This document shows positions 1,434-55,852 of a stretch of 64,000 nt of DNA, piece after piece. This DNA is from a virus: IMG/VR virus record IMGVR_UViG_3300048837_000984, positions 124,001-188,000 of that record. One strand, 5' to 3'. Below the pieces are notes generated by a model. The model was not told the origin of the DNA, did not search any database, and worked only from the letters and a program-made list of their open reading frames with translations. Each line of letters starts with the position of its first letter. The first letter of the stretch is position 1. A program made the position numbers and the translations under genes.

Positions 1434-1451
1434 GGGAAAAAAATCCTCCTA

Positions 1452-1488: not shown

Positions 1489-1519
1489 CAGATTAAATTG
1501 ACACGAAAACAGGTTGTTT

Positions 1520-2880: not shown

Positions 2881-3393
2881 TTAGCAAGCCGGACTGAAAG
2901 TTCTTCTCCCGTACTCGGCCAAACATACTGCGTCTGCTGCACCGTCGTGGTCTTCGTCATCTAGCCGAATGTCGAAACCTGGATACAGGTTGCGAACAAA
3001 GGCTATCGTCGCTTTCTTATCCTTCGCCGTGCCTTTCAGGACGTTAGCTTTCCAGACTGTCGGCAAGACGGCAAGAATTGGTATGGTCTTCCTGGCTGCG
3101 ACGTAACCGCGTATCTCGCCGAAGTTTCTGAAAAGAGCCGCAGTTGCAAAGACACCGTTTCCTGGAATGAACGGCGGGTGCTCTACAACTACCAGGTCTA
3201 CACCCTCACAGTACTCGTCCAGAACCTTGACCATGTCCGGCAAGTGGACTTCCTTCTTGGCCCTGGCCTTGCCACTTGCCCGTTTGCCAGAAGAGACGTC
3301 GACAGCCGGCATCGGTGTCCACTTTTCTGGCTTGTTGTCACGAAAGAGAACAATAGCTCCCTTGTTACCCGGGTCGATCGCGCAGATCAGCAT
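2881..3393 (-). CDS. RuvC-like Holliday junction resolvase
   Basis: 170-residue RNase H-fold nuclease of the RuvC type, expected to cut four-way DNA junctions before packaging. Visible catalytic acidic positions are D7 in AIDPGNKGA, E71 in VVVEHPP, and D150/D154 in HDGAADAVCLAEY, in family order. Length matches RuvC. The 5' end overlaps the end of the DnaQ-like exonuclease gene by 29 nt and an intrinsic terminator follows the stop, so resolvase and exonuclease share a transcript. The ribosome site is weak, suggesting translational coupling. Confidence 0.85.
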   Translation of the reverse strand: MLICAIDPGNKGAIVLFRDNKPEKWTPMPAVDVSSGKRASGKARAKKEVHLPDMVKVLDEYCEGVDLVVVEHPPFIPGNGVFATAALFRNFGEIRGYVAARKTIPILAVLPTVWKANVLKGTAKDKKATIAFVRNLYPGFDIRLDDEDHDGAADAVCLAEYGRRTFSPAC

Positions 3394-4616: not shown

Positions 4617-4849
4617 TAGCTTCTCCAGAACTCCTCGCTTCGAGCTGCTTCAGGGATACCGAACTCGGCAGCCGTTGGCAGTCGAACGATCTTACGGATA
4701 CGCATTTCCGAACCCAGCTCGGAAATGAGATGGCGACGAGCTTCCGTTTCGCTCGTCGCCACGACGTCAGCTACACCGATGTTGTTCTCTTCGGAATCAA
4801 TCCGGAACACCAATCGGAATAACTTTTCCACACCGTCTCCTTCTCGCAT
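4616..4849 (-). CDS. small hypothetical protein (77 aa)
   Basis: Small alpha/beta protein with hydrophobic strands (LFRLVFRID) and a central helix. The ATG at 4849 is preceded only by a weak GGTG; a GTG at 4831 has AAGGAG five nt upstream and may be the true start. It is the first gene after the DHFR hairpin and has a possible promoter just upstream. Confidence 0.6.
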   Translation of the reverse strand: MREGDGVEKLFRLVFRIDSEENNIGVADVVATSETEARRHLISELGSEMRIRKIVRLPTAAEFGIPEAARSEEFWRS

Positions 4850-4867
4850 GATCGCACCTTCATACCA

Positions 4868-4898
4868 ATAATCTGCGACAGAGCGTCGACATTGTCAA
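4868..4898 (-). promoter_or_regulatory. possible sigma70-like promoter
   Basis: On the minus strand a perfect TTGACA (4893-4898) is followed after 19 nt by GATTAT (4868-4873), ending about 20 nt before the 77-aa gene. The spacing is long and the -10 imperfect. A second TATAAT occurs at 4912-4917 without a good -35. Confidence 0.3.
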
Positions 4899-4917
4899 CA
4901 CCAGATAGCAGATTATA

Positions 4918-12489: not shown

Positions 12490-12575
12490 TGTTAAACCTT
12501 AGATCGAAGTTTCGTTAGAAAAAGCGCCTATAGATATTTAGCTAAAGACCGACTGTGTTTGTGCCAGCCACCTCC

Positions 12576-15500
12576 TTACTTCAGGTATTTCTCGGGGATA
12601 CCGAGTTTCAGTCCTTCCTGCTTGTCGATAGGAACACCCCAGTTCAAGTACAGGCCGTGTTCGACCGGCATATAGATTGGGTCTCGGCCTGGAGTTCGCC
12701 TCCCAGACAGGTCGCACTGGTACATAGGAATCCCAGACATGACGCGATGAAGGAAACCCGGATTGCCTGGGTCGCCTAGAAACCATTCCAGGCAGTCGGG
12801 TCGGACCTCGAACATGATGGCATCATGAATCTGAAGAATCAACCGATACTTCAGTCCACTAGCGTCACGGCGATCTGGTGCCCAGTAGAACTTATCCAGT
12901 GCCCGACTTACAAGGTCAGCAACGGCAGATTGGATGGGAAAGTTTCCGGCCTGCCGCTGCATTTCAGCCACAACCTTTTGGTCGGTAGACGGTTGGAAGC
13001 GTCGAGAGCGTCCGTAACAGTTGCGGAGCCAGCCCGGGTCGACGACCCGCTGCTGACAATTCCCGAAGAAGGTTTCCAGCTCAGGATACAGGTGAAAGAT
13101 CGTAGACCGGATGTTACCTACCTGCTCTGGCGTAGCTGTAATGCCCTCTTCCTCGATGGCACGCATGACAGCCTCGTCACCCCTGCCATAAGCAAGGCCG
13201 AACATTAACGTATTGTGGTTTGAAAGACCGTTGACCACCAGATGGTGGTTTCCACTTTCGACATCGTAGACTTCGTGATCGCCGACATCCTCTACAGAGG
13301 AAACACGAACGAAACGGCCACGCAGGGCAAGAAGGTTCCGTAAATGCTCTGCTGAGGCTACAACCGTCGTCGGTAAGTCAGCCGGCAGCGCAGCAACGAT
13401 CTCTGCCAGACGGCTCCGGTTGAGCCGGACACGGCTGTTAGTCCGTAAGCACTCGCGACACTTTTCCCGAGCCCGACCCTGGAGGTACGGAAACACGGTC
13501 TTTAAGTGATCGAGCTGGTTCGGATACACACTGACATCGGCGCTATACCCCGTGGCAGTCGCACACCTATCTCGCTTACTGGCCGTCACGAAGCCTACGT
13601 CGCTGAGGAATCGAGCTTGAGACCTCCTCGACACAGTAACAGTCCAGTAAACGCCGTCGCAGTCCTTTCTCCTTTCAGATCGAAGACGAGAAGCTATGCC
13701 GAGACCATCAAGAAGAATCTGCACGTCACGAGCCAGGGCAGAACTGCTGCTTGAATACTGGATGAGGAAACCGTTCCCATTGCGTTTGGCGGTGCCGTCA
13801 CCCTCGAACAACCACCGCAAAAAGGTTCGGACCAGCCTGTTTGGCCACTGAAACACGAAATCAGGAACGATTCGGTCCGCAGACAGTCCCGGACAGATTA
13901 TCCTCAGCCAGTCACACAGCTGGTTTGAAGCTACCAAGAAAGATCGTTGCCGCTGGCAACCCGGCAGAAACCTGGTTGCTACCTTCAGCCGGTGACCGAA
14001 TAGTCGGCGCAGCAGAGCCTCACTTGCCTCAGCAAACGACGGGTCTTTCTCTTCAGCGAGGCTGACAGAAAACGTACTGCTGGTTTTGCCTTTCAGTAAG
14101 CAACCCTCCGAAACATGAAGACCCAGAAAAGCCGCCCAGTCTTCCGTGAAGTGCTCCGGCACCTCGATCGGGCTCAAGTTCGATCGGTAACTGTCCGCCG
14201 CGGGCCAAAGCTTGAACGGCGGGTCCTCGTTGTCGCGACCAGAGTCAACGTCAACTGCGTAACCGTCGTAAACGATAGCCCAGTCGCCGACACGAATGTC
14301 TGCCGACCTAACCCAGACTAATCTACCCTTGTCGTCGACAGAACGGAACCGGTGCTCCACTGTACCAGTCACACTATGGCCGTCAGCCGTCGTCACGCGA
14401 ATACACGGCGAGGCTGGACCCCGGTACAAACCTTTCAACGGAGTCGGTCCCTCGTCGGTCACGAGGGTTAGATCGCCGTCGAACCGTTCTTGAGTGTCTG
14501 CGTCTAGGTGACCACACAGCTCCTCTACCCGAACCCAGCCACGTGACGTCAAAAGACGCGAACCAGCCACAACGCACTTGGCGACATCGCGGAGTTTAGC
14601 CTTTCCAGCCGCCTTCAGCCAGAACTTGAGTGGCGGCAGAGGATCGCCCACGGACAGGCCTAGATCTTTCGGATCCTTACCGAGGACCTTGGCGCCCTCA
14701 GCCAACACTTTCTCGTTCTCGATGGTCAGTCGGAAGGCCTGTACCGTTACCGTACTGTGAATGTCGTACTTGCGTGGATCTTTGTCGTCCAGCTCAGCAC
14801 GCATACAGTGGTCGACCATCGCGGCGGAACCAGACTGCAACGCCATGACCGCCAGCTCAGCGCCGATGTAGTCAGCTTCCACTCCGACCCACCCAGGTGA
14901 AGCACAGAGCATCGACCGAAGAGGGTACTGGTAGTCGTCACCGAGGATCTTCTTGTAGTCGGCTTCACGGCGTTTGCTGTTGCCGGTAACGGAAATCTTT
15001 CCGTTTCGACGAAAGATAACGAACTCTGACGGTACGGTTACACAGTAGACCAGATCGTCCCAGGGGACCTCCTTTTTGGTTAGACTTTTCGTTTGGGAGT
15101 AATCGCGGCGTCGGTGTAGCGAAGGAATATCAACGCAGTAGTGCGTACTGGATTTGGGGTTTCTATTCCAGTACTCGCGCATCCTTGCCCGCCAGCCGGA
15201 TAGACACCAGAGAATCTGGATCCAGTCAGCGTTTTCCTTGTCGCTGGAACTGTACTCAGTCTTCCTTGTCCACAGGCCGTCCCAGAAAAGAACTTCCTCT
15301 GCGATAAGATCCAGAGTAGCTCGATCGAAGTCCAATAGCCAAGGACCGAACTTCTTGTCCGGCATACGTTTCTTGGCCCAGACAGCCCACGGGTCGTTAG
15401 CTCCGACGTAAACGCTAGTGACGCCCGTCCCCCTCTCCGATGTGCGAAATTTCGCCCCAAGACGACCCAGGACGCCAGTCAGGGACTCGATTTTCCTCTC

Positions 15501-18221
15501 CTTGGAAAACGAAAACACGATCCCTCCGCCAGAGACATAAGAGCCGTCAGCCTGAACAGCGCACAGCCACTTAACTTCGTCCTCAGACAGGGAGACAACG
15601 CCACCGCCATAAATGCCAGCGTGAACCCACCTAAAGTCTCCTGATCTTGGGTTGATATCTTCTGCGTTGACGATAAGAGCCTTGTACGTCTTCCGTGAAC
15701 GGAGAAGGCATCTGTGATTGCTTGTAACGAACAGGTCTATCTGGTCGTTACCCAAGATGTGCTGCATGTTGCCGCGGTATCGCTGAACCTGGAGCTCTGG
15801 TTTGACAAAGTCTACAGTCCTGTTCGTTGTCCAGTACTGGGCGACCTCGTCCCTTTCGGTCAGGTCTTTGAGCTTTATAAACCCTCTCCTCGTAAGAATC
15901 TCGGTATCACCGTCAGCTGAAAGATTCTGAACCGGTGGCCTCGCCGACTTCGCTCGTCCAGTTTCTGCGGTCTGAAACAGGTGCGTGCGAATTCGGTTGT
16001 CGCTGTGGAGCCACGTCACCAGGCCCTTCTCGAACTCCTCCTCCCCATTGTCATCCGTTTCCGGCTCAAAATTGTCGTCGTTATGGTCGCGAACCTTCGG
16101 CGGACACACGACCTTCGACAGCACTGCTCGCACGAACCGAATGTTCCGAAGCAACTCTACGATACGCCGAGCCTTCTGCTGCTGCTCCGTCTCCGTAGGC
16201 ATGTTGGCCAGAAAGATGCCCAGAACTTCTTTCGAGGTAGAAGGACTGAACAGGTGCTCCTCACCTCTTCGACGAATCTGCTCCCAGTCCTTGCTTGGTT
16301 TTCCTGAACTAACGATGGGTTGAAGACAGAGGTTGACAGCGTCCGGTTTCGACAACTTGACATACGCGTTTGTCTCCTTGTCTCGCTTGCCGTTGTGCTT
16401 GTAACCGAAAAGAAGCTCACGGCACTGCGGGGTGCTGTTGGGATTGAAGTTTGGCCAGTTGATCTCCCGGCGAAGTTTTGTAAGTAGCTTGTCCTCGACC
16501 TTGGCGTAGGAAACGGCCAACTCAGACGACTTCTCTTTGTCAAAATAGACACCCGTCATTTCCATCTCTAGAAACGCTGGGCTAGCACGCATGGCAACCC
16601 AGAACGCCTTGCGGGCATCGTTGCCGTACATGTCGCTGTCCAGGAGACCTCCCGGCTTGTTCAGCAACTCGAACAGCTCTCGAGTACCCGCGGCGTCCCA
16701 TCCGGCGTAAGACTTGTGGTTGACCTCGCCGTCGTCGCCCATGAGGATATCGTCCGGACAGTCGCCGTAGCCCTCGAGGTCTTTCTCCTTTATTTTTCGT
16801 TCCGAGCAATAATCCTTTTTCCAGAGGATAAGGTCTCGATCCCATCTCGGGATCCCACAGTACTGGTTGCACAGGACTTCCAGCTTGTACCCAGAAGGCC
16901 CAGCCACTTCCTGGACAGAATGGACCGCCAGCATCGTATCGAAGCCGCCCGCGGTTCTGGTCTTCTGCCAGCCAAACAGGCGCTCACGGCCGTCCGGGTC
17001 TTCATCATGATCCGGAGCCGTGAACTGGTTCATGAGCGCTTCGCCAAGAACCGGGTCGAAGCTGTTGATCCACGGTAAGTCAGCACGAAGGTTGTGCCCG
17101 ATGATGCGGACTTTATTATTGTGTTCCGCCATCAACAGTCGCCGCAGTGGCTCCCTGGCCGCGTCGATGCCCGGACAGAAGGCCGTTTTTCCTCCTTGGT
17201 GCCGAAGGACGACGATGTAGGCGTGGCCTGGCTTATGGCTGAACTGGATCATCCGAAGCCAGGCTCCGGGCTCTGTTGGGTACTCTCCATGCCACTCAGA
17301 GTCGAGTGCGATGCAGTTACCCTCAGGGTCAGAAAGTATGTCGTCCACAACCCGGTCGAGATGGCGCCGGGTGTAGATCTTTTCCAGTTTCAGTTTGCGA
17401 TCTTCAACTTCCGAGCCGTTGATGGCATCGACGAACTGCTGCACGCCAGATAGCAGGGAAGGGTACTGATCGACACTTCTTGCCACGACCGCAGGATGAA
17501 TGCAAGTCATGACCTTGTAGCCAGACTCCTCCGTCGAGCCGTCCGGGTTGAAGTAGGTAACGGACTGTTCGAAAACACGGCCCTGGGTTGTCGTGACGCC
17601 ACCAACCGAGCCCAGAACAGCCTCGGAGGCCTCGTTGCCCAGGCACAGGATGAACTTGGGCCGGACAATGTTGATTTCCTGCCACAGAATAGGCAAGCAG
17701 TTGACGATCCACTTCTTGGGGAGTCGTATCGACGCGGGATCCACGTTCGCGTGCTTGACAACGTTCGTCACGTACCAGTAGTCCGTGTCGTCGACGCCGC
17801 ACTCCTCCAAGGCGCGCCGAAAGATATCGCCAGAAGGGCCGACGAAGTTTCGGCACTGCTGGAGTTCTTCTCGGCCGGGCCACTTACCGACAACCATGAT
17901 CTCGGCCGGACGCGGTCCGGGGTGACCGTTGGACCCCCAGATGTGCCCTGGCACGAAAGTAGCCTGGATGGGCTGACCCTTCAGCAGGACATTCAGGCGA
18001 AAGTCAGGTTGGTAGAGAGCCTCACGATAAAGCTTCTCAAGAACCGGCCCGCTCTTGAGAAGCTTCATGGGCTTGTCTTTCTTGTCAATCTTAGGCGCTT
18101 CGTCACCCAGGTTCATTGCCTCCGCAATGAAGTCTTCCCCAGGGATCGGCAAAAAGCTGGACGTAAGAGGCGAAAATGGAAGCAGATCCAGCTCTTCTTG
18201 CGAATAACGTAACCAACTCAT
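12576..18221 (-). CDS. UDG-domain / family A DNA polymerase with two inteins
   Basis: 1881-aa precursor giving a 1112-aa mature protein. Residues ~105-265 resemble a family 4-type uracil-DNA glycosylase (NFVGPSGDIFRRAL, YVTNVVK, CIHPAVVARS). Residues ~300-520 are a 3'-5' exonuclease (ALDSEW, IGHNLRADL, YAGWDAAGT). The polymerase has TGRAKSARPPVQNL, motif A (VEADYIGAELAVMA), O-helix motif B (RDVAK...TLMFGLAYG) and motif C as QIHDAI, where most relatives have HDE. Inteins interrupt before motif A and inside the O-helix. Start ATG has GGAG seven nt upstream and overlaps the primase stop as ATGA. This is the phage's replicative polymerase. Confidence 0.93.
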   Translation of the reverse strand: MSWLRYSQEELDLLPFSPLTSSFLPIPGEDFIAEAMNLGDEAPKIDKKDKPMKLLKSGPVLEKLYREALYQPDFRLNVLLKGQPIQATFVPGHIWGSNGHPGPRPAEIMVVGKWPGREELQQCRNFVGPSGDIFRRALEECGVDDTDYWYVTNVVKHANVDPASIRLPKKWIVNCLPILWQEINIVRPKFILCLGNEASEAVLGSVGGVTTTQGRVFEQSVTYFNPDGSTEESGYKVMTCIHPAVVARSVDQYPSLLSGVQQFVDAINGSEVEDRKLKLEKIYTRRHLDRVVDDILSDPEGNCIALDSEWHGEYPTEPGAWLRMIQFSHKPGHAYIVVLRHQGGKTAFCPGIDAAREPLRRLLMAEHNNKVRIIGHNLRADLPWINSFDPVLGEALMNQFTAPDHDEDPDGRERLFGWQKTRTAGGFDTMLAVHSVQEVAGPSGYKLEVLCNQYCGIPRWDRDLILWKKDYCSERKIKEKDLEGYGDCPDDILMGDDGEVNHKSYAGWDAAGTRELFELLNKPGGLLDSDMYGNDARKAFWVAMRASPAFLEMEMTGVYFDKEKSSELAVSYAKVEDKLLTKLRREINWPNFNPNSTPQCRELLFGYKHNGKRDKETNAYVKLSKPDAVNLCLQPIVSSGKPSKDWEQIRRRGEEHLFSPSTSKEVLGIFLANMPTETEQQQKARRIVELLRNIRFVRAVLSKVVCPPKVRDHNDDNFEPETDDNGEEEFEKGLVTWLHSDNRIRTHLFQTAETGRAKSARPPVQNLSADGDTEILTRRGFIKLKDLTERDEVAQYWTTNRTVDFVKPELQVQRYRGNMQHILGNDQIDLFVTSNHRCLLRSRKTYKALIVNAEDINPRSGDFRWVHAGIYGGGVVSLSEDEVKWLCAVQADGSYVSGGGIVFSFSKERKIESLTGVLGRLGAKFRTSERGTGVTSVYVGANDPWAVWAKKRMPDKKFGPWLLDFDRATLDLIAEEVLFWDGLWTRKTEYSSSDKENADWIQILWCLSGWRARMREYWNRNPKSSTHYCVDIPSLHRRRDYSQTKSLTKKEVPWDDLVYCVTVPSEFVIFRRNGKISVTGNSKRREADYKKILGDDYQYPLRSMLCASPGWVGVEADYIGAELAVMALQSGSAAMVDHCMRAELDDKDPRKYDIHSTVTVQAFRLTIENEKVLAEGAKVLGKDPKDLGLSVGDPLPPLKFWLKAAGKAKLRDVAKCVVAGSRLLTSRGWVRVEELCGHLDADTQERFDGDLTLVTDEGPTPLKGLYRGPASPCIRVTTADGHSVTGTVEHRFRSVDDKGRLVWVRSADIRVGDWAIVYDGYAVDVDSGRDNEDPPFKLWPAADSYRSNLSPIEVPEHFTEDWAAFLGLHVSEGCLLKGKTSSTFSVSLAEEKDPSFAEASEALLRRLFGHRLKVATRFLPGCQRQRSFLVASNQLCDWLRIICPGLSADRIVPDFVFQWPNRLVRTFLRWLFEGDGTAKRNGNGFLIQYSSSSSALARDVQILLDGLGIASRLRSERRKDCDGVYWTVTVSRRSQARFLSDVGFVTASKRDRCATATGYSADVSVYPNQLDHLKTVFPYLQGRAREKCRECLRTNSRVRLNRSRLAEIVAALPADLPTTVVASAEHLRNLLALRGRFVRVSSVEDVGDHEVYDVESGNHHLVVNGLSNHNTLMFGLAYGRGDEAVMRAIEEEGITATPEQVGNIRSTIFHLYPELETFFGNCQQRVVDPGWLRNCYGRSRRFQPSTDQKVVAEMQRQAGNFPIQSAVADLVSRALDKFYWAPDRRDASGLKYRLILQIHDAIMFEVRPDCLEWFLGDPGNPGFLHRVMSGIPMYQCDLSGRRTPGRDPIYMPVEHGLYLNWGVPIDKQEGLKLGIPEKYLK
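13212..14576 (-). mobile_element. intein 2 of the DNA polymerase (LAGLIDADG type)
   Basis: Precursor residues 1216-1670 (455 aa). Starts with Cys1 (CVVAGSRLLTSRG), has block B GTVEHRF, two LAGLIDADG-like helices (AAFLGLHVSEG and RWLFEGDGTA) and ends with canonical SNHN before Thr+1. It is inserted after the catalytic lysine region of the O-helix (RDVAK / TLMFG), so the polymerase should be inactive until splicing. The splicing residues are intact; both endonuclease acidic positions are plausible. Confidence 0.93.
14979..15920 (-). mobile_element. intein 1 of the DNA polymerase (Ser1, degenerate LAGLIDADG)
   Basis: Precursor residues 768-1081 (314 aa). Alignment with block A (x-L-S-Y-D-T-E-I-L-T pattern) puts residue 1 at Ser768, with GDTEILTRRG following; block B is VTSNHR. 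Endonuclease helices WLCAVQADGSY and EEVLFWDG are weak. It ends in VTGN before Ser+1, so the usual penultimate His is Gly. Splicing joins VQNL to SKRREADY, restoring the family A spacing to motif A. Confidence 0.88.
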
Positions 18222-30083: not shown

Positions 30084-30148
30084 AAGTCTCCTTGTGCAGA
30101 AAAAGCACAAGCCAAGGACGTAACAGCCACGACAGATGAGTTACAGAT

Positions 30149-30164
30149 GTGGGGCAGTTTATCC
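30149..30164 (+). repeat. iteron-like repeat 1
   Basis: GTGGGGCAGTTTATCC, close to the consensus GTGGGGTTGTTTATCC. Confidence 0.6.
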
Positions 30165-30186
30165 AAGCGATTTCGGGAACCCTATA

Positions 30187-30200
30187 GTAAACACCCCTAC
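30187..30200 (-). repeat. iteron-like repeat 2 (inverted)
   Basis: Minus strand reads GTAGGGGTGTTTAC. Confidence 0.65.
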
Positions 30201-30242
30201 AATTTACACCGTAATGTACGCCTTTACACATACACCACCTAG

Positions 30243-30258
30243 GATAAACACCCCCACG
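30243..30258 (-). repeat. iteron-like repeat 3 (inverted)
   Basis: Minus strand reads CGTGGGGGTGTTTATC, the closest partner of repeats 2 and 4. Confidence 0.65.
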
Positions 30259-30317
30259 TTTTAGAAAGGCTGGTTTCAACAAAGATTACCGCAGTATACA
30301 GACATACACCGCGAAAT

Positions 30318-30333
30318 GTAGGGGTGTTTATTC
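30318..30333 (+). repeat. iteron-like repeat 4
   Basis: GTAGGGGTGTTTATTC; shares GTAGGGGTGTTTA with repeat 2. Confidence 0.65.
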
Positions 30334-30367
30334 TAATGTGCTTGCAGGTTTTTTTGCCGTCTAAACT

Positions 30368-30383
30368 GTGGGGTTGTTTATCG
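30368..30383 (+). repeat. iteron-like repeat 5
   Basis: GTGGGGTTGTTTATCG. Confidence 0.65.
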
Positions 30384-30429
30384 TAGTAAAGATGCAGAAT
30401 TTTGAGTAGATAAGCGCTGCGTGCGTAGG

Positions 30430-30467
30430 TCAGATACAGTAGCATGCTTGCATGCTACTGTATCTGA
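30430..30467. repeat. perfect 38-nt palindrome (17-bp arms)
   Basis: Arms 30430-30446 and 30451-30467 are exact inverse complements with a CTTG centre. No T-run on either strand, so a cruciform or dimeric protein site is likelier than a terminator. It lies between iterons 5 and 6. Confidence 0.75.
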
Positions 30468-30524
30468 AATCTTTGGTCAAGACTAATTCGGCTGTTCTTC
30501 GGTCCCTGCCGTGTTTGTAAAAAA

Positions 30525-30540
30525 CGTGGGGTACTTTAAC
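30525..30540 (+). repeat. iteron-like repeat 6 (degenerate)
   Basis: CGTGGGGTACTTTAAC; keeps GTGGGGT and the T-rich right half. Confidence 0.45.
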
Positions 30541-30564
30541 CTAGCAGGTCTGTAAATCCAATAT

Positions 30565-30579
30565 GTAGGTGCGTTATCC
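30565..30579 (+). repeat. iteron-like repeat 7 (degenerate)
   Basis: GTAGGTGCGTTATCC; one G shorter on the left, intact TTATCC on the right. Confidence 0.45.
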
Positions 30580-30618
30580 TATCTTTCTCTTCAAGAAAGA
30601 AGAGGTTAGCAATAATGA

Positions 30619-30658
30619 GGTATCCATCCTCCCAGCTCTAGTGGCTGGGATGGATACC
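30619..30658. repeat. bulged hairpin at the right end of the repeat region
   Basis: GGTATCCATC...CCAGC pairs with GCTGGGATGGATACC over 15 bp with a three-base bulge and a 7-nt loop. It may terminate transcripts of the 64-aa gene or bound the control region. Confidence 0.5.
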
Positions 30659-30722
30659 AATTATTGGTGGCAAAGCCACAGTTAAGACAAAGATGAAGAC
30701 AACAATATGAAAAACAACTTTC

Positions 30723-35520: not shown

Positions 35521-38500
35521 TCAAATCTCGCAACCGTTAGCCGTACAGGCGTATGTCTGCGAGCTTACTGTCTGATCCTCCTTTTCGTAGTACCGGAGCT
35601 TGCTCCAGTCGATCTTCGGAAACGAAGCCTCGAGCCTGTTGTACTCCTCCTCAGTGATAGCCTCGTACGGCGGGAAGAACTCGCTGTACACACCATTATC
35701 CTTCGGCAGGAACGAAATACCGCTGATACTGTCGAAGTTCTCGTAAACCCAGTTCCCAGATTCCATCCACTCATGGTCGTCGATGTAGACCGTGCAGGAC
35801 ACCGAGTGTTCGGCCCAGAACTTCTTCCAGGACATCCAGTTATTGAGCATGTCCAGGGCGGAGAAGTCGTCGACTACCGGTGCGCCCTCTGGCGACTTGA
35901 TCGGGAAGTCGAAGACGTTGAGGCTGGAATCGAGCGGATCCAGCCGGTGCGGAACGCCCGCGTCTACCAGCAGCCTGCTTACTGGACTAGCGGCACTCTC
36001 TCGCACCCGACGGACATAGAACTTCGAGTAGCGCGCGTGAACACCACTGGAGCAGCCGAACAGCTGACTGGAATCACCCGACGGCTTCACACAGGTCAGC
36101 GCAGCTGGGTAGTTGATACCAAACCGTTTGGCGTAGGTGTCTGCGGTGGCCTCGACGACCTTGAACAGCCGCTGGAGAAGCTTGTCCTTGTCGGGAGCTC
36201 CGGGACGCAGCAGAGGACAGTCGACCTGGCCAGTGATATCGACACCCAGAAGACGTTCCTCCTCAGCGTTCTTCTTCCATTCTGGTCGGATGTACCTGTA
36301 GTTGGTCAGAGTCGACTGCATCATGCCGAACAGCGTTGCCAGCTTGACCTTGTGTTCCAGCGTATCGACCGTATCATCTGGCCTTGCGATGGCGATGGAA
36401 AGGTTGCAGAACGAGTGTGGCCGCAAAATTATCTCGGAACACTGCCCGGAAACTACGCCGTTAGCCAGCACCGTGTGCGTCTCTGGCTGGTTGAGACAGA
36501 AGACGTCGGAGACGCCGGCTGGTTCGACCGATGTTACCGTTGTTATGAACCTTTCCGGCTTCCGGCACTCGTGCCCCCTTTCTTGTAGAGTGTCTTCCAG
36601 TCTCTTAGCTTTACGACCGAACCAGGCGATTCGCTCTTGGAAACGGAGTGCGTTTGGTCGAGACAGGATCAGCTCGTAGTTGTCTACTTGCTGATAGACC
36701 TTAGTTCCTCCGCGGCCATCAGGCATGGGTGCGCTTCCAGCCGGTCTTCGCAGGTAAAGCCTGGAAACGACGCCGAAGTTGCTGAGTAGGGCCTGAACAT
36801 CCTCCAGCAGTGCCCGGTTACTCTGGTTGAGACGGAGCGAGACTGTTCTCGCCGCGCCCTTACCTGCCGCGTTGACTGTTCCGTCTGTATAGAACAGTCC
36901 GGCCAGGTATCCCTGAACACACTCACGCGACCCTCGCCAGACGCACTCAGGAACCCGAGACTTGACGTCGACAACGTTCTCGATACCGGCGACGGCGTTT
37001 AGCCACCGAGCCAGTCGAACGCCACCAGTCCTAACCTTGTCGACGGTCGCGATCTGGTTCGTCCACACGACTTCGCCATAGTCACGACCACTGGTCGAAG
37101 AAACCGCACCGACCAGGTTGTTGACGTAACCGCCGATCCTTTCTGCGTCGACGAGGTTATCGCCCCACAGGTCAACGAACGCGGCGTACTGTCCGTGCGT
37201 CTTTACCTTGCATACGGTACCGTCTCCGGTCAGAAGCCCGAGAACAACCCCAGCGCCGTAATCGCCGAACGATCCCCACTTCCCTTCGTCGGACTGGAGA
37301 AGGAGCGTATCGCCGGGTTCCAACTCAGACAGCTTCTTGCGTCCGTTTGTGGTTGGGAACTTGTGGTCAGCCGTACAGACAACGCGATGGCCGTGCGCCG
37401 TTCGCAGCTCGAAAACCGGCGCAGATCGCTGCGTCATCTCGACCTGGGTTGCTGCTCTGACCTGGGTGCCATAGGCCTTCGAGTCGAGAACATCACCGTT
37501 CCCGGCGCGGGTGTCTGTGACGACGTCGACTGGGCTGCCAGACAGGAACAGGTCTCCGATGCGTAGCAGACCTTCGGTCGTACTCAGCCGCGTGTCAGGG
37601 TGGAAGCACGGATTAGTCCCGAAGACATAATTTTTATTTCTTCGGGCCGGCATGCACTTGAGGACGGCCTCCCGGTTGAAGATGCCACGCTCGCCAGAGT
37701 TGCTCTTGGCTAGAGACAACCACTCTTCCATGAAGTCGATCGACGGGGGTTTCTCCGTATACACAGCCGAGTTGTTGGCCATGTTCCGCCACTTGGCTCG
37801 GTTGTACCAGTCGCCAGACTTAGCTTCGCGCATCTCTTCGTCGTCGAGATCCGACAGGCTGATGGTGCTTGCCCGCCGCACACCACCTACCTGAACGATC
37901 TTGGCAATCATGCAGGCAATATCGTGGCAGTCGATCGGACCCAGACGCTTACCGGCCTTGTTGCGCACAGTGTCGCGAACGAAGTTGAGCAGCGTTCGCA
38001 ACGGCTCAGGACCGGAAGAACGCCCTCCCTTAGTTTTCAGCCTGGCTCCAGCAGGCCGAATGAGACTGTAGTCGTAGGTCACATCGTGCCCGTCGAACCA
38101 GCGCTCCATGCCGACACGAAGTGCCTCACACCAGCCTTCTGTGTCATCGCTGATAACGATCTTCTCTGCCGTTGCCTTCTTGGGCTTCTTGACCCGATGA
38201 AGGCGGTTGACGTAGTCACTTTCCACAGAGAAACCGAACCCAGAGCCCTGCATGAGGATGTAGAGCATCTCAGCGAATGACTTGATGTCAGCGAGAGGGC
38301 TATAGGAGCAGTTGCCAGTAACGATGCCATCAGCGAGAACGAAAGAGCGGTCTTCTTCGACTTCCAGACACCACACGTCTTCCGTTCGCTCGCCTTCGAT
38401 TTCCCGAACAGAGTAATTCGAGCTTGGCGCATTTCCGAAAGCCTGGAGCAACCCAAAGCAAACCGTCTTGTCGCCTCTCTCGCCCAGATTTGTGGTACCT

Positions 38501-39828
38501 GTGATTTCCCGGACGTTGGTGATATATACACCGACAGCTGGAAAAGTTTCCTGCACGAAATCGATCACTTCCTGTCCCGTCACCTGAATGCCAGAAAAAT
38601 CGTTCGGGCTTGAGGTAAGTCGGTTGGTATTTTTGTTACCATCCGCGTCCAAAAACCCACGAACGAAGGCGCGAACCAGTCGTACCCCCTCGACAGCTAA
38701 CGACGGCAACTTTTTCAGGTAAGTTCCGGTGTAGACGATTGGCTCGCCAGAACACGACGGCGGATGACTGTGGTTGAAACCGAGTTCGGTGAATCTTTCG
38801 AGGTACTTGGCCTTATCTCCACACAGCCTGACCATCGAGCTTCTGACCTCACCGCCTTTTTTAACCAGCGTACCGTCACCATACGTGAATCCGTATGCCC
38901 AGTACAGCTTCTCGTCGGGTGGGGCAGCATCATACGACCAGGCTGCAAAGGGTGCTGGTGGCGTAATTAACCGGTCTCTCGTGCCGAGGTTTGTCGTTTC
39001 CGTACCGTCGCACTTAAGCCATCGGTGGTTAGCTGTAGCCCACACAGTCCTTCGTGTTTTAGACCGGCCGAAGGTAATCTTCCGTAGCGTGTCGGTCCCG
39101 TAGTTACGGACTACAGCCTCTCGCCAGTTACCGGTGTGAGACAGAACCGTAACTTTGTCCCCGTCTTGAAAATCGGCGAACGTACGGACGCCTCTGTCTG
39201 TAATAAAAGCCGTCTCGCGGCTCAGACAGTTGAAAGCCGCAACGTGACATCTGTTCAGCGCCGGTCCTGCCATCTGCAGGACACGCAACGCCGGTGAGAC
39301 TCGCAGGGCGTAGAACTCGTCCTGAAGCTCGTTCCACTCCCGCTCTTCCAGCTTGATGTGCTTGACAGACTTGAAGAAACGCATGACCCGGTCGACAGAC
39401 TCTTTCCAGGTCTCTCTCCGGCCAAGCTCGTCGCTCCACCGGGCAAACTTGGAGACCAGCTGGTAACGCTGGATTGGTGACTCGAAGACCTTGTCATCGT
39501 CAGCGAAGAGAATCCTTTCCTCTGGTGACACAGCACTGGCTTCCCGCATCAGGCGACGTTCTTCTCGATACAGCGTGTAGTGTTCGGCTGCTGCGTAGGA
39601 AGAGGCTGCCCACAGCTGCTGAATGACCAGTTGCTGAATCTCTTCGATAGAGACGCGCGCAGTCTTTCTTTTCTTGAGGATCGCTTCGACCCTCTCGGCA
39701 ATATCCCGACTTCCAGACTGAACATCGGTTTCGCTTGCGTTCACCTGCGTGAGGCAACGTTCAACCGCATGGACGATCTTGGCGGAATCGAAAGCTTCCA
39801 CCCGACCGTCCCTCTTGAGAACTTCCAT
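35521..39828 (-). CDS. nrdJ: class II (B12-dependent) ribonucleoside-triphosphate reductase with two inteins
   Basis: 1435-aa precursor; removing two inteins leaves 740 aa, essentially the length of the Lactobacillus monomeric reductase. An ATP-cone-like N-terminus (~1-95) comes first. Catalytic features: substrate-site cysteine block C507 (CSYSPLAD), QGSGFGFSV, active Cys1130 (NP/CSEIILR), CVKPSGDSSQLFG, GVHARYSKFYVRRVR and the C-terminal redox pair CTANGCEI. It makes dNTPs from NTPs using adenosylcobalamin, needing no oxygen or activase. An intrinsic terminator follows. GGAG before the ATG supports the start. Confidence 0.93.
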   Translation of the reverse strand: MEVLKRDGRVEAFDSAKIVHAVERCLTQVNASETDVQSGSRDIAERVEAILKKRKTARVSIEEIQQLVIQQLWAASSYAAAEHYTLYREERRLMREASAVSPEERILFADDDKVFESPIQRYQLVSKFARWSDELGRRETWKESVDRVMRFFKSVKHIKLEEREWNELQDEFYALRVSPALRVLQMAGPALNRCHVAAFNCLSRETAFITDRGVRTFADFQDGDKVTVLSHTGNWREAVVRNYGTDTLRKITFGRSKTRRTVWATANHRWLKCDGTETTNLGTRDRLITPPAPFAAWSYDAAPPDEKLYWAYGFTYGDGTLVKKGGEVRSSMVRLCGDKAKYLERFTELGFNHSHPPSCSGEPIVYTGTYLKKLPSLAVEGVRLVRAFVRGFLDADGNKNTNRLTSSPNDFSGIQVTGQEVIDFVQETFPAVGVYITNVREITGTTNLGERGDKTVCFGLLQAFGNAPSSNYSVREIEGERTEDVWCLEVEEDRSFVLADGIVTGNCSYSPLADIKSFAEMLYILMQGSGFGFSVESDYVNRLHRVKKPKKATAEKIVISDDTEGWCEALRVGMERWFDGHDVTYDYSLIRPAGARLKTKGGRSSGPEPLRTLLNFVRDTVRNKAGKRLGPIDCHDIACMIAKIVQVGGVRRASTISLSDLDDEEMREAKSGDWYNRAKWRNMANNSAVYTEKPPSIDFMEEWLSLAKSNSGERGIFNREAVLKCMPARRNKNYVFGTNPCFHPDTRLSTTEGLLRIGDLFLSGSPVDVVTDTRAGNGDVLDSKAYGTQVRAATQVEMTQRSAPVFELRTAHGHRVVCTADHKFPTTNGRKKLSELEPGDTLLLQSDEGKWGSFGDYGAGVVLGLLTGDGTVCKVKTHGQYAAFVDLWGDNLVDAERIGGYVNNLVGAVSSTSGRDYGEVVWTNQIATVDKVRTGGVRLARWLNAVAGIENVVDVKSRVPECVWRGSRECVQGYLAGLFYTDGTVNAAGKGAARTVSLRLNQSNRALLEDVQALLSNFGVVSRLYLRRPAGSAPMPDGRGGTKVYQQVDNYELILSRPNALRFQERIAWFGRKAKRLEDTLQERGHECRKPERFITTVTSVEPAGVSDVFCLNQPETHTVLANGVVSGQCSEIILRPHSFCNLSIAIARPDDTVDTLEHKVKLATLFGMMQSTLTNYRYIRPEWKKNAEEERLLGVDITGQVDCPLLRPGAPDKDKLLQRLFKVVEATADTYAKRFGINYPAALTCVKPSGDSSQLFGCSSGVHARYSKFYVRRVRESAASPVSRLLVDAGVPHRLDPLDSSLNVFDFPIKSPEGAPVVDDFSALDMLNNWMSWKKFWAEHSVSCTVYIDDHEWMESGNWVYENFDSISGISFLPKDNGVYSEFFPPYEAITEEEYNRLEASFPKIDWSKLRYYEKEDQTVSSQTYACTANGCEI
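36442..37608 (-). mobile_element. intein 2 of the reductase (ends in Gln)
   Basis: Precursor residues 741-1129 (389 aa). Cys1 (CFHPDTRLSTTEG), block B CTADHKF, LAGLIDADG helices GVVLGLLTGDG and GYLAGLFYTDG, C-terminal block VLANGVVSGQ before Cys+1. The last residue is Gln in place of Asn and the penultimate is Gly. Cys+1 is the reductase's active-site cysteine, so the enzyme cannot work until splicing. Confidence 0.9.
37624..37636. repeat. partial copy of AT-core motif
   Basis: GACATAATTTTTA, sharing 13 bases with the copy at 23149, within the reductase coding region just before intein 2. Confidence 0.35.
38311..39228 (-). mobile_element. intein 1 of the reductase (LAGLIDADG type)
   Basis: Precursor residues 201-506 (306 aa). 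Cys1 (CLSRETAFITDRG), block B WATANHRW, LAGLIDADG helices YWAYGFTYGDG and VRGFLDADG, end VLADGIVTGN before Cys+1. Splicing rejoins VAAFN with CSYSPL at the substrate-site cysteine. Penultimate His is Gly. Confidence 0.92.
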
Positions 39829-50709: not shown

Positions 50710-51088
50710 CTCCTTCCTCTCCTTTGGTTATCCCCTCGAAGAGAGCCTCGACAACGTCGTCGAGTTCGTCCACGGTAGGAGGCCCGTCTGGCCAGGTGTC
50801 GAACACACCGTCTTCGGTCATGTCCTTCAACTCGGCTTTGACCGCAGAGATGCCGAGCTGAACTATGCGGAACATCCTTGAGTTGAACTGCTCCTGTTCC
50901 TTGTCCGCTTCCTCGACGGAAATGTCGTTAATGCTGACAACGGGGCTAATGCCCCACACCCCCTGGTTCAGCAGGTTGGCCTCTTCTCCAGCTGCTATGG
51001 CTTCCTCGACAGTGGCAAAGACCTGGTTGTCCTTGTTGACAACGAAGTCGAAGCCGTTGTGAGGATCGCCGATGAGGATGATGTACAT
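50690..51088 (-). CDS. acidic hypothetical protein (132 aa)
   Basis: Begins MYIILIGDPHNGFDFVV, then highly acidic. ATG with GGAG upstream, starting inside the AAA+ stop (TAATG). It overlaps the DUF3150-like gene too, so all three are translated together. No recognised domain. Confidence 0.65.
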   Translation of the reverse strand: MYIILIGDPHNGFDFVVNKDNQVFATVEEAIAAGEEANLLNQGVWGISPVVSINDISVEEADKEQEQFNSRMFRIVQLGISAVKAELKDMTEDGVFDTWPDGPPTVDELDDVVEALFEGITKGEEGDDAEPD

Positions 51089-52917
51089 TAGTTGTCTCCG
51101 GGATTGATATGGGCCTGTCGGCCCTGTCGTTGGCTCGTGAACTGTGGCTTAGCCAAGCTCACTGGGGTAGCGTTGTTCTGACAGAAGTCCATGATAGCCT
51201 GGACACTCTTTGCTGCCAGCTTGTAAACAGGCGAAATAGTTTTGTGGGCCTGCAGGACGTCATCCAGGGTAGGCTGCAGTTCTCGCCGCTGTACGAAGGC
51301 TCTGCGCACGGACATGATGCAGATCTGTTCCAGCTCCGCACCAGTGAACTGGTTCGTACTGTCTACAATGACCTTCTTGTCTGCCGCCTTGAAAGTCGAA
51401 AAGCTTGCGCCGTTCTTCTTCATGTGGATGGTCAGAATCTCTTCCCGTTCCTGTGCAGATGGGAAGTCCGTGTAGAACGTTGCGTCGAGCCGACCGGTTC
51501 GGATTGACTCGACAGGTACTACCATCTTGCCAGTCACTGGGTCGGCCAGCTTGTTCATGGTCATGATAACGAACGCATCGCTATTCTCGTTCGCCATCCA
51601 GGACAGGAGTCGACCGAAGACCCGAAGGCTGACGCCACTGTCTCCGCTACCCTCGTCAATGCCGCCGAAAGCCTTGTCTGCCTCGTCGATCAGGACCACG
51701 CATGGACCTTGCGACTTGATGCGCTTCAAGGCCAGGCGCTGCCTCGTCTCGGACTCACCGACGATCCCGGCGAATACGCTGGAGAAGTCGTATTTGATGA
51801 GGGGTATCCGCATCGCCTTGGCTGTCGCCATGGCGACTGTACTTTTCCCAGTCCCGGCGATCCCCAGCAGGAGAACGCCCTTGGGCTTGCGTAGACCGAC
51901 CTTGGCCGCTTCCTCGGAGTAGCAGACCTTGCACTCCTCTACAAAATTGAGATAGTTCCTGTAGCCGCCGATATCCTGCATGGAGGCGATGCTCTCAGCG
52001 TCGATATATTCCAGAACATCGTCGTTCTTGAACGTAGCGGCCTTTTGGCGGTTGATAGTCGTTACCGCCTCAGGTGGAAAGCCGCGGTGACGGACACCGC
52101 ACAGGTAAAGAGCGTTGTTGGCTTCCGTACTGGTTAAGCCTCGAAGAGCTCGAACGATCTCGTATTTGGTGGCCTCGTCTGGTGGCTCGATGTTTCCGAC
52201 AAACCCGTTTGAGGTCAGGACTTCTTCGAGCTCCTTACGAAGCTGCGCCTCGGAAGGGTTCTCGAACTCCAAGCTGGCACAACAGTGCTTGATGTCCCCT
52301 GGAATACTCCACTCTGGCTGCATCAGCACGATTGGCCGCTTGAAAGAGGACGACACCAGAAGGTTGTTCTCGAACAGGTACCGAATCACTCGCTGGCACC
52401 GGGGATCCACGTCAGCCACATATCGGTGAATATCGTGGAACACGAAGATGCACCGCTTCGGGAACCGGGACGGGTCTGTGTCGATTGTCGACAGCAGCGC
52501 CTCGTAGGGATCCCCGACACAGGCGCCCTTCTCCAGGCCGGCAAAGCCACTTACGACGTCATAGGTTACGACCGAGTATCCGAAGGCTGACAGCAGATTC
52601 TCGATGCTGGAAACAAGATCCCGATACTTTGGCTGGTCGATAGAAGCTGCCCGGTCCAGGATCTTGATCATTAGAGGCGCGTCAACGGTCAAGACTGAGC
52701 CGGAAAACATTTCCTCGGCGGACTCGTCTAGCGATACCAGGCTAGCCTTAAACTCGCTGATGTCGATGTTGGCTGGCGTAAGGTCGACGGTCTTCTTGTT
52801 AGCGAGAAGCCAACCAGAGCGGCGGATCTCGTCCACCGCTCTGGTCTCTTCGGTTGTGTTGATATTGAGGATTGCGTAGCCGGCTTTGACGTGTTCAGTG
52901 AAATTCTGAATGAACAT
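51088..52917 (-). CDS. Ycf46/FtsH-like AAA+ ATPase
   Basis: 609 aa. An N-terminal ~300-residue domain begins like Ycf46 (KAGYAILNINTTEETRAVDEI), a helical bridge, then an AAA+ core: Walker A GIAGTGKST (352-360), Walker B VVLIDEADKAF (D411 E412), sensor MTMNKL, and an arginine-finger-type RTGRLDATF. No FtsH zinc-protease HExxH. It is probably a hexameric remodelling engine. Ycf46 associates with DUF1257/DUF2997 in other genomes, as here. Confidence 0.87.
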   Translation of the reverse strand: MFIQNFTEHVKAGYAILNINTTEETRAVDEIRRSGWLLANKKTVDLTPANIDISEFKASLVSLDESAEEMFSGSVLTVDAPLMIKILDRAASIDQPKYRDLVSSIENLLSAFGYSVVTYDVVSGFAGLEKGACVGDPYEALLSTIDTDPSRFPKRCIFVFHDIHRYVADVDPRCQRVIRYLFENNLLVSSSFKRPIVLMQPEWSIPGDIKHCCASLEFENPSEAQLRKELEEVLTSNGFVGNIEPPDEATKYEIVRALRGLTSTEANNALYLCGVRHRGFPPEAVTTINRQKAATFKNDDVLEYIDAESIASMQDIGGYRNYLNFVEECKVCYSEEAAKVGLRKPKGVLLLGIAGTGKSTVAMATAKAMRIPLIKYDFSSVFAGIVGESETRQRLALKRIKSQGPCVVLIDEADKAFGGIDEGSGDSGVSLRVFGRLLSWMANENSDAFVIMTMNKLADPVTGKMVVPVESIRTGRLDATFYTDFPSAQEREEILTIHMKKNGASFSTFKAADKKVIVDSTNQFTGAELEQICIMSVRRAFVQRRELQPTLDDVLQAHKTISPVYKLAAKSVQAIMDFCQNNATPVSLAKPQFTSQRQGRQAHINPGDN

Positions 52918-52919
52918 TC

Positions 52920-53615
52920 TTACCCCAGTCCCACCTCTTGCGCGTCCTTCAGCTTCTGTAAAGCCCCGGACACAAACCGTTTCATCGATTCTGTGTTGGC
53001 GTTCTTCAACCCAGCCTTCGACAGCTGGTTGACCAGAGCGAGCATTCGCCCGGTCACGATGGCGTTGATTGTTTCGGTTTTCGAAGTCTCCATGTCGAAC
53101 ATCGCGTTGAACATGACCGGATCGTCGGAGAAGTCGTACTGGACCCGGTCGACAAGCTTGTTGTCCCGAGTAGCGATCCGCAACACATCCGGAGGCGTGA
53201 TGATACCCTCAGCGTCCAGGACCTTACCCATAAACGCTGTAATCTCTTCGTTAAACGGGTTTTCTGTTTCCGGCGGAGACAGGAGAAGCGCTTCGGTCAC
53301 TCCCCAGGCGATATCGTCGGAGTCTGGTAGAGCCAGAATGTCGCTAGGAACGCTGTTGCCGGAGAGGATAACGCATAGCCTGGCAAAGTCGACTACGCTC
53401 AGGAAGAAGCTGTTTGTAGTCAGGATGGCGATTGCCGCCATCAGACGCTCGAAGTTCTCTCGCGGAATCTCCAGACCGTTGTCTTCCTCGATTTGGATTT
53501 CAATGGCCAGAGGCTCCCAGGACAGCGCTTCACTGCCGTAGGCGTCCAGGAACATCGCGACCAGAGTGGTCGCGAACATGCTAGGATCTTTCCAGAGCTG
53601 ATTTCCTTTGAACAT
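52920..53615 (-). CDS. hypothetical protein (231 aa)
   Basis: Unrecognised, mainly helical; ATG with GGAAGGAAAG upstream, and an alternative ATG 12 codons in. It sits directly upstream of the AAA+ gene and overlaps the next gene by 35 nt, so it is likely a partner within the module. Confidence 0.6.
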   Translation of the reverse strand: MFKGNQLWKDPSMFATTLVAMFLDAYGSEALSWEPLAIEIQIEEDNGLEIPRENFERLMAAIAILTTNSFFLSVVDFARLCVILSGNSVPSDILALPDSDDIAWGVTEALLLSPPETENPFNEEITAFMGKVLDAEGIITPPDVLRIATRDNKLVDRVQYDFSDDPVMFNAMFDMETSKTETINAIVTGRMLALVNQLSKAGLKNANTESMKRFVSGALQKLKDAQEVGLG

Positions 53616-54060
53616 CGGCGCTTTCCTTCCGTCGTTGCAGGGAGTCGAGCTTGCGTTTGGCCTGCAAAGCCAGTGCGCCGATATTATAAGTGATTACTTC
53701 GACAGGGGCTTCGTTCAAAGTTGGCCGGTGATCCCCGCTTGCCAGACAGAGAAAGCCGTCCCGACCGGACAGAACGGCATAACTGCGATCAAGGATGGCC
53801 AGTTGCATTATCACTGTTTCTTTGTCCGGCTGGAACTCGCAGCCGAACTTGACCAGATCGTCGACATAATTATTAAGTAGCAGGTCGACGGCTTCGGGAG
53901 AGATAGGCGACGACGAGGACAGCAAAGCAGCAAGCCAGACGAAGATAGACTCCCCAAAGCCCAGAGCCTCTTCATCCGTTCTCTTTAGCTGTCGCCACAG
54001 CTTTCGGATTGCTAGTGGAGACAGCTTCGGAAATAACTTTGCTGCCTCGTCGCGGGTCAT
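53581..54060 (-). CDS. hypothetical protein (159 aa)
   Basis: Helical protein with an EAVDLLLNNYVDDL segment whose codons contain an AT-core motif copy. ATG overlaps the upstream stop as ATGA; the end overlaps the 231-aa gene. Unrecognised. Confidence 0.6.
   Translation of the reverse strand: MTRDEAAKLFPKLSPLAIRKLWRQLKRTDEEALGFGESIFVWLAALLSSSSPISPEAVDLLLNNYVDDLVKFGCEFQPDKETVIMQLAILDRSYAVLSGRDGFLCLASGDHRPTLNEAPVEVITYNIGALALQAKRKLDSLQRRKESADVQRKSALERS
53862..53878. repeat. copy of AT-core motif
   Basis: GACATAATTATTAAGT, one base from the GACATAATTTTTAAGT copy at 23149. Confidence 0.4.
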
Positions 54061-54371
54061 ATCGCACCAAGACCAGAGTTCATCTCGTAAGTACAGTGCC
54101 AGCCGGCTGTCTTCTCGTGACCGCGGAGAAGGTCAGCTGTGGTTTGACCGGCCTCGTTAACCGGAGTTGGCGTCCGATCCAGGCCGAAGCCACGAACAGC
54201 GAAGCCGTTCTTGATGGCTTCTTCCTGTGCCTTAGCTCTCGCCGCCTTGGACAGAAGACTTTCTCGGTTACGCGCCTTGAGGACCACGACAGCATTGCAG
54301 GTGTCGACTCGCTTGAACGAGACCACCTCGAACTCGCTAGTATCTGCCGCCTTGTTGAAGTCGATCGACAT
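54057..54371 (-). CDS. hypothetical protein (104 aa)
   Basis: Start ATG 54371 with GGTGG nearby; ATG 54383 is an alternative. Short domain with VDTCNAVVVLKARN and a terminal HCTYEMNSG segment. It is the first gene after the structured RNA region and ends with ATGA coupling to the next. Function unknown. Confidence 0.6.
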   Translation of the reverse strand: MSIDFNKAADTSEFEVVSFKRVDTCNAVVVLKARNRESLLSKAARAKAQEEAIKNGFAVRGFGLDRTPTPVNEAGQTTADLLRGHEKTAGWHCTYEMNSGLGAI

Positions 54372-54391
54372 TTCACCACCCATAGTTAAAG

Positions 54392-55180
54392 ATAAGGGCC
54401 GGAAAGGCTTAATATCTAAAATACCAACCCCACTACCGCACGTCAGTAGAAAAGATAGAGAGCTACGTATGTAGCACTCCACCCAATCGACTGACTGTGC
54501 GGTAGTGAGGTTGTGATGTATTTGCCCTTTTCCGGTCATCCGGTTGGCGGGCTGCCTGTCCTTTTGTACGGTAGACTAACCGCCAGGGATTATCTGTTAA
54601 CCCTGGATCTTGTCCGGTCTATCCGGACTACGCGGGTCCAGTGCGGGGCCGCTACCCCTTCGCACCGCTGGCAGGCAAGATACATCCTCCACAAGCTGCC
54701 AGTCCTGTGGAGACTTGAGTGTCGGGCAGCATCGGGTTGCTAGGCCGATGCTGCACTCTCGCAACCTTAGTGGCAATAAGGCCTGCCGAGCCGGCTTTTT
54801 CTCTGGGAGCCACCCAGGCGGTTAAGCTTTACCGCAGCTGTCTTTACAGGGTCCCCCCTGGCCGTAAAGACAGAAACCGAGAACTTTTAACGCAGTTACT
54901 ATGCGGACTGTTACGGAAGTTCTACCGGAGCTCTGTCACCCAGACAGAGATGGCCGTGTTTTCTGGAACACGGAAAGAGACGCAGGCCAGCGCTGCGTCG
55001 CGCTTCCGGGTCGGTCGAGCGCGAACTCGACCGACCCGGTAATTAGCTGTTGCCAGCTATTTTCAGGTGACGACTGGAAACGATCCAGCCGCCACCCGGT
55101 CCCCCGGACACGCGTTGACACGCTCTCAGGTCTGGGAGTCAGAAACCTAAGGGCGTATCACCTTTAATTGACGCGTTTTT
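54392..55180 (-). ncRNA. candidate large ornate structured RNA
   Basis: About 790 bases without a supported gene, dense in stable stems: a 20-bp stem with one bulge and one mismatch (54426-54447 with 54490-54512), a pseudoknot of two 7-bp stems (54668/54696 and 54687/54706), 10-bp stems at 54726 and 54838, 7-bp stems at 54931, 54954 and 54979, a 14-bp perfect stem (55006-55019 with 55026-55039) and a 6-bp stem at 55044. On the minus strand two loops are GNRA (GCAA at 55050-55053; GGGA within the 54838 hairpin). Short frames exist but lack ribosome sites. Strand is inferred. It resembles in scale GOLLD/ROOL/OLE-type RNAs, some phage-borne; I cannot test class membership here. Confidence 0.7.
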
Positions 55181-55189
55181 GGTGAGTTT

Positions 55190-55450
55190 TTAGGTGAGTG
55201 TGACGTCTCGGCCGTTTGGTAAAAATACGCGGATGGCCTCGACCTTGAGAAGAGTCTTGAGCGTCTGGATTCCTTCGGTGGTGAGAGCTGCTGTGGCTGA
55301 CTTGATGAAGTCGTAGTCGGGTGCAATGGTTATCTTGCCGCAGCAGCCCGACTTCTTTATCGTCTTTCCGAAGAAAGGGAAGACCTTCCGGACCTCCCGC
55401 TTCTTGGCTAGAGACTTGATAGCCTGGTTATCCAGGAAGAGGCTTCGCAT
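55190..55450 (-). CDS. small hypothetical protein (86 aa)
   Basis: Basic, compact protein with a CCGK centre and an alpha/beta C-terminal half (ALTTEGIQTLKTLLKV). The ribosome site is weak. It is the last tail-region gene before the structured RNA, and its stop borders that RNA. Function unknown. Confidence 0.6.
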   Translation of the reverse strand: MRSLFLDNQAIKSLAKKREVRKVFPFFGKTIKKSGCCGKITIAPDYDFIKSATAALTTEGIQTLKTLLKVEAIRVFLPNGRDVTLT

Positions 55451-55453
55451 GAC

Positions 55454-55852
55454 TTACTGACCCGCTGTGTATATCTCTGGCGGACTCAGCCGGTCAGAGA
55501 TGTTGAGTGTCTCAATGAGCTGATCGACGTCAGCCTTGATTGCCGACCAACCCTCGTCAGCGTCAGCCAAGGTCTCGTAGAACAATGAAACACTATCAGT
55601 CCGATAGTAGATGCCGACCGTTGAGTCATAGCTGGTTGGGAGTGTATTCATCTCGACCGGCGTGCATATTCCTTCGTAAATGACTTCTATGTCTTCAGCG
55701 TCGTCGCTAAGTGTCAGGACACGTACACGGAAGACCCGGTCATCGATGTTATTGCCATCCGACGCGGAAACAACCAGACGGTAACCAGTTACTGAGGTAC
55801 TGGTGTCTGGGACCGTACTGGATCGGGTGAGCTTCAGAGTTCGACTAGCCAT
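55454..55852 (-). CDS. hypothetical virion-region protein (132 aa)
   Basis: Beta-rich, Ser/Thr/Asp-rich like tail accessory proteins. GAGG five nt before ATG. It lies in the tail run next to the collar fibre but has no recognised domain. Confidence 0.6.
   Translation of the reverse strand: MASRTLKLTRSSTVPDTSTSVTGYRLVVSASDGNNIDDRVFRVRVLTLSDDAEDIEVIYEGICTPVEMNTLPTSYDSTVGIYYRTDSVSLFYETLADADEGWSAIKADVDQLIETLNISDRLSPPEIYTAGQ

Follow-up and report, generated by a model that had tools for sequence, protein, structure and literature searches.

A large, densely structured non-coding RNA predicted in an exchangeable cargo slot of a widespread phage group

Introduction

What occupies the longest non-coding gap (54,375-55,189) of a phage genome segment that is otherwise packed with genes? 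The stretch analysed here, referred to as the window, spans 64 kb and corresponds to positions 124,001-188,000 of a 193,694-bp virus contig; ~94% of it is coding, and coordinates below are those of the window unless a relative is named. Large non-coding RNAs (ncRNAs) of phages, among them GOLLD, ROOL and the ICP1 RNA, occur at high abundance, and for most of them no function is known. The original prediction had proposed a large RNA for this gap, one that recalls GOLLD, ROOL and OLE in size and density. We examined the gap for its coding capacity, its folding, its flanking signals and its counterparts in related phages.

Results

The gap is non-coding and strongly folded

Codon scores for the frames inside the region ranged from -0.03 to -0.21 bits per codon, compared with 0.15-0.40 for reference genes, and a ribosome-binding site (RBS) scan of the region detected no Shine-Dalgarno sequence with an ORF of at least 40 aa. 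The 160-aa frame at 54057-54539 consists of the downstream gene p54b and an upstream extension that scores as non-coding (-0.18 bits per codon). By codon scores and RBS scan, the predicted ncRNA unit has no coding capacity, and the claim of a gene-free stretch in a packed genome was borne out.

The minus strand of the region (811 nt) folds with a minimum free energy (MFE) of -385.4 kcal/mol, compared with -284.9 +/- 6.2 kcal/mol for dinucleotide shuffles (z -16.1), while the plus strand has a z-score of -11.3; the sense strand is preferred over the antisense strand only moderately beyond composition (-25.6 vs -9.8 +/- 7.2 kcal, ~2.2 s.d.). When the 64 kb were scanned in 150-nt sliding windows, the two most extreme minus-strand peaks both fell within the region (54351-54550, z -9.2; 54901-55200, z -8.7). 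The region contains four hairpins with 7 or more perfect Watson-Crick base pairs, against a mean of 0.22 and a maximum of three in 300 shuffles, so the dense structure with many stems, several of them perfect, that had been proposed from inspection of the sequence is indeed present.

On the minus strand, these elements include a 14-bp perfect hairpin (CCGGGTCGGTCGAG/CTCGACCGACCCGG, 55006..55039), a 10-bp perfect hairpin (54726..54754), a 10-bp perfect stem (54838..54873), and a predicted multi-branch domain (54518..54715) with closing helices GAUGUAU/AUACAUC and GCCUGCC/GGCAGGC that appears in both the MFE and the centroid fold of the single sequence. The previously proposed pseudoknot was not demonstrated, since we found only a 12-nt long-range complementarity (54577-54588 with 54813-54824) with which local hairpins compete. 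Of the two minus-strand hairpins said to carry GNRA loops, one has such a loop (GCAA, ~55,050), while the second was not confirmed.

Predicted promoter and terminator bracket the unit

Promoters were sought with a matrix trained on 13 promoters of the CTTAAT-17 nt-CATAAT type that lie outside the slot, elsewhere in relatives. On both strands of the 64 kb, the top-scoring site was 55,194(-), with a score of 13.9, followed by sites scoring 11.8, 9.8 and 5.3. The top site lies 4 nt before the end of the upstream gene p55a, which is the expected place: in most relatives, the same matrix predicts a promoter at a distance of 0-30 nt from the end of p55a, or further along where an insert (up to 200 nt) intervenes. 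The predicted promoter CCTAAAAACTCACCAAAAACGCGTCAATTAAAGGTGAT (55157..55194, minus strand) has a -35 element at ~55193-55188, a 17-nt spacer and a -10 element at ~55170-55165, and it overlaps the end of p55a; AAAACGCGTCA was found once in the 193.7-kb contig. In one relative, clusters of single-gene units alternate terminators with CTTAAT-17-CATAAT promoters (TGCGTCATAAT). From its sequence, the ncRNA unit is thus predicted to have its own promoter. Scanning IMG/VR with the promoter motif revealed no further slot. The same promoter class also occurs at 1524(-), where a perfect hairpin comes next, and then a Shine-Dalgarno sequence and a 76-aa ORF at 1203-1433 (all within 1203-1524, minus strand).

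At the other end, the predicted terminator (54412..54513, minus strand) comprises a long, almost perfect hairpin (54425-54513) and then GTATTTTAGATAT, which together represent one version of the hairpin-T-tract-TTAGCTAT arrangement of this phage group; the RNA would end with the long hairpin and then TATTTTAGATAT. A hairpin, a T-tract and TTAGCTATYAG occur at many intergenic sites of related phages, as an intrinsic terminator with a fixed tail, and the TTAGATAT form of the tail is also found in four relatives (L240, L255, L261 and L285). The terminator stem shows compensatory changes in 11 relatives. A role for TTAGCTAT as an RNA loop motif or promoter was considered and rejected, since it trails terminator hairpins across these phages. 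The long hairpin, T-tract and TTAGATAT are best read as a predicted intrinsic terminator belonging to the unit itself.

The bounds of the transcription unit, 54,412-55,194, are slightly wider at the 5' end than originally proposed. Within them, the predicted structured RNA (~0.74 kb, 54412..55158, minus strand) combines a fold z-score of -16 with no coding signal on either strand and a predicted promoter and terminator at its ends. A large structured ncRNA on the minus strand is well supported.

The unit lies in a conserved slot of related phages

The neighbouring genes described here are on the minus strand. Upstream lie two conserved small proteins, p55b (55454..55852) and p55a (55190..55450), the latter bordering the slot; downstream lie the conserved small proteins p54b (54057..54371, start ATG at 54371 or 54383) and p54 (53581..54060), the conserved protein p53 (52920..53615), and a phrog_8638-like AAA+ ATPase (51088..52917) with an IetA-like match in PADLOC. 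The four small proteins have homologues in relatives. The region had been placed between the AAA+ module and the virion genes, a position that we refine in that p54b, p54 and p53 separate it from the AAA+ gene.

Single-protein queries returned no relatives, while alignments used as queries did. A terminase alignment retrieved ~40 IMG/VR records with roughly 40-59% terminase identity, in 11 of which an AAA+ search detected the gene, and an alignment of p53 retrieved 62 loci; searching GTDB genomes yielded no relatives. The order p55b-p55a-gap-p54b-(p54)-p53 is kept in ~50 non-identical records, with p54b inverted in many of them. A strongly folded stretch is nearly always present in the gap; a predicted promoter marks the start of the gap, right behind p55a, and a predicted hairpin-T-tract-TTAGCTAT terminator marks its end. 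Unit length varies from ~90 to 890 nt and its content is variable, yet the downstream genes stay conserved. Cargo turnover is fast, because the flanking proteins of L184 and L185 are 60-69% identical but their units can be aligned only near the ends. Computation shows the region studied here to be non-coding and strongly folded, with conserved transcription signals on both sides and at a position that is itself conserved. As for whether its stems survive in homologous phages, the outcome was mixed: the slot and a structured element persist, but relatives carry other cargo in place of this RNA sequence.

Some relatives carry a ~130-nt insert with complementary ends directly behind p55a, which could be a MITE-like or structured element. 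It is present in L238 (~3660-3800), L239, L249, L252, L244, L256, L243, L233, L255 and L268, and absent from L241, L247, L261, L264, L269, L279 and L251.

The slot carries proteins, a tRNA or structured RNA

In ~20 records, a 123-146-aa protein lies between promoter and terminator. We rejected the idea that the same ncRNA fills the ~800-nt gap that can be aligned among some 20 relatives, since that gap encodes a ~124-aa protein. L184, L185, L229 and L231 encode a ~50-aa protein with a TATExYLxxLGxS-like motif, and the units of L184 and L185 have a structured leader ahead of a small ORF. The nearest relative, L177, encodes a 100-aa Csx3-like protein (2660-2962; PADLOC E 1.8e-7, Pfam score below its cut-off), which is a candidate for a phage-encoded ring nuclease that counters type III CRISPR. 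Type III CRISPR uses cyclic oligoadenylate messengers, which Csx3 (Crn3) cleaves (PMC7371418).

Three slots contain a tRNA-Met(CAT), alone in L199 and together with a 135-142-aa protein in L197 and L200. Directly upstream of this tRNA is a ~200-nt leader (L199 3622-3885, L200 6530-6790, L197 5138-5414), which shows about a dozen two-sided compensatory pairs outside the tRNA across the three sequences and is a candidate new RNA class. Searching the L199 and L200 slots against Rfam at E<=0.1 returned nothing except the tRNA, and a covariance model of the leader from all three phages had no match in the window.

A hairpin is the sole slot content of L192, L195, L196 and L198. ORF-less structured RNAs of unrelated sequence fill the slot in L182 (~0.76 kb, z -11.8) and L227 (~0.55 kb, z -8.8; 12 shuffles each), and L183 was left out of this RNA-only count because no convincing promoter was found there. 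L227 has a second, partly identical copy of its RNA behind p53: the structured module occurs twice within ~2 kb (3124-3384 and 4662-4899), with ~100 nt identical and repeated CCACGCGTGCGTGGATAAGGGG units, and is apparently duplicated or mobile.

The RNA has no detectable homologue or known family

No homologue of the RNA sequence was detected by blastn in the phages collection, its own genome or 43 related records, and nhmmer with the RNA against all fetched loci matched only the RNA itself, in searches from which records very close to this genome may have been withheld; covariation within slot contents was observed only in the other contents carried by relatives. Rfam gave no hit at gathering score in the 64 kb and none at E<=5 in 54000-55600, GOLLD, ROOL and OLE included, so the region is not a detectable member of these families and the suggested kinship is not supported. 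Sub-threshold Rfam hits to hairpins (symR and two miRNA models) were judged to be chance. The 64-kb window contains no tRNA, and the tRNA association that is frequent, though not universal, in GOLLD and ROOL was seen only as tRNA-Met in the slots of the three relatives.

Discussion

We consider it fairly probable that the region is an autonomous unit encoding a large (~0.74 kb), densely structured and lineage-specific ncRNA in an exchangeable cargo slot and that this RNA, like other cargo, acts in trans. Transcription of the minus strand would start at a phage-type promoter just behind p55a and stop at an intrinsic terminator before p54b, and the transcript would accumulate as a stable RNA of ~0.74 kb. 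Its folded body might bind or titrate a host factor, so that the RNA would act in trans during host takeover or counter-defence. We infer this role from what else fills the slot in relatives, a Csx3-like protein and a tRNA among them; as a reading of function, it draws on neighbours and analogy. The RNA is probably a new phage RNA tool.

The Csx3-like cargo of the nearest relative hints at counter-defence. A more specific proposal, which we regard as tentative and rather doubtful, is that the slot serves as a counter-defence cassette: the ~0.74-kb RNA would itself be the effector, and proteins such as a Csx3-like ring nuclease, or a tRNA, could take its place. If this were true, large folded RNAs would serve these phages as exchangeable tools against defence.

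It is unlikely that the structure works at the level of DNA (as a replication origin, or as a site of packaging or recombination) instead of as RNA. Inverted repeats are dense on both strands (plus-strand z -11.3) and the sense excess is only moderate, as a DNA element would predict, but promoter and terminator signals flank the slot at the same position also in relatives that carry a gene or a tRNA as cargo. Moreover, the stems are all different, iterons are absent from the region, there is no marked skew change, and the gap at 30,111-30,722, with inverted and direct TAAACACCCC repeats, is a better origin candidate.

Equally unlikely is that the RNA works in cis, as a long structured 5' leader of p54b and the downstream genes, and not in trans. 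The RNA does share its strand with p54b-p54-p53-AAA+ and immediately precedes them, and L184 and L185 have a structured leader before a small ORF inside the unit. However, a strong predicted terminator separates the RNA from p54b, and the unit varies in length (~90 to 890 nt) and content while the downstream genes are conserved.

We consider it very unlikely that the region is a diverged copy or member of a known large ornate RNA (GOLLD, ROOL or OLE), possibly an RNA cage. Its size, phage origin and dense helices are similar, and the slot variants with a tRNA-Met and structured leader recall GOLLD-tRNA associations (PMC12286853), but Rfam yielded no match at gathering score in the window or at E<=5 in the region, L199 and L200 matched only tRNA at E<=0.1, and the window lacks a tRNA. 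That the region is a cargo gene for a protein, decayed or simply unrecognised, is likewise very unlikely: a small protein gene does fill the slot in most relatives, but codon scores are negative in every tested frame, no ORF of 40 aa is linked to an RBS, and structure with a z-score of -16 would not arise by decay.

The preferred reading, a trans-acting ncRNA carried as cargo, can be compared with several known systems. GOLLD env-38 lies downstream of a Met-tRNA, and the linker of some GOLLD RNAs contains tRNAs (PMC12286853), a layout that resembles the slot variant of L197, L199 and L200. Like GOLLD, the RNA predicted here is a large, densely folded phage RNA with a tRNA association in those three slot relatives, but it has no covariance-model match and its window is without a tRNA. 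It shares its size class and phage setting with ROOL, but again has no covariance-model match and is not near a tRNA island. While not a detectable GOLLD, ROOL or OLE member, the RNA may work like them. Phage K, a large lytic phage, produces the long ncRNAs lnc001 and lnc002, the former with its own early promoter (PMC9241854); unlike the RNA predicted here, both adjoin tRNA genes, and they come from an unrelated phage with no sequence link in the phages collection.

The closest analogue is the ORF-less ~800-nt transcript between gp139 and gp140 of Vibrio phage ICP1, the most abundant transcript of that phage (PMC7567579). Both are phage RNAs of ~0.8 kb in a gene-free space of ~1 kb with no tRNA nearby and with a function that is not known. 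They differ in that ICP1 is another phage, with no sequence relation in the phages collection, and in that expression was measured there and is only predicted here.

Because the slot is shared with a Csx3-like protein, a tRNA and small proteins, it offers a testable route to function through a common host factor or defence. In addition, the promoter and terminator signatures allow more ncRNA units to be listed in this widespread phage group.

Other features of the window and of a relative

The second-largest non-coding gap of the window (30111-30722), a candidate replication origin, has lower G+C and several direct and inverted TAAACACCCC-type copies. A perfect palindrome of 18 bp spans 30430-30467 within it, and a promoter-like site lies at 30551(+). 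In the relative L182, the match to the AAA+ homologue (a 926-aa frame, 12425-15097) is split into two halves, as would fit an intein or some other insert. Read from their translations, the DNA polymerase frame (12576-18221, minus strand) and the ribonucleotide reductase frame (35521-39828, minus strand) of the window each look interrupted by two inteins.
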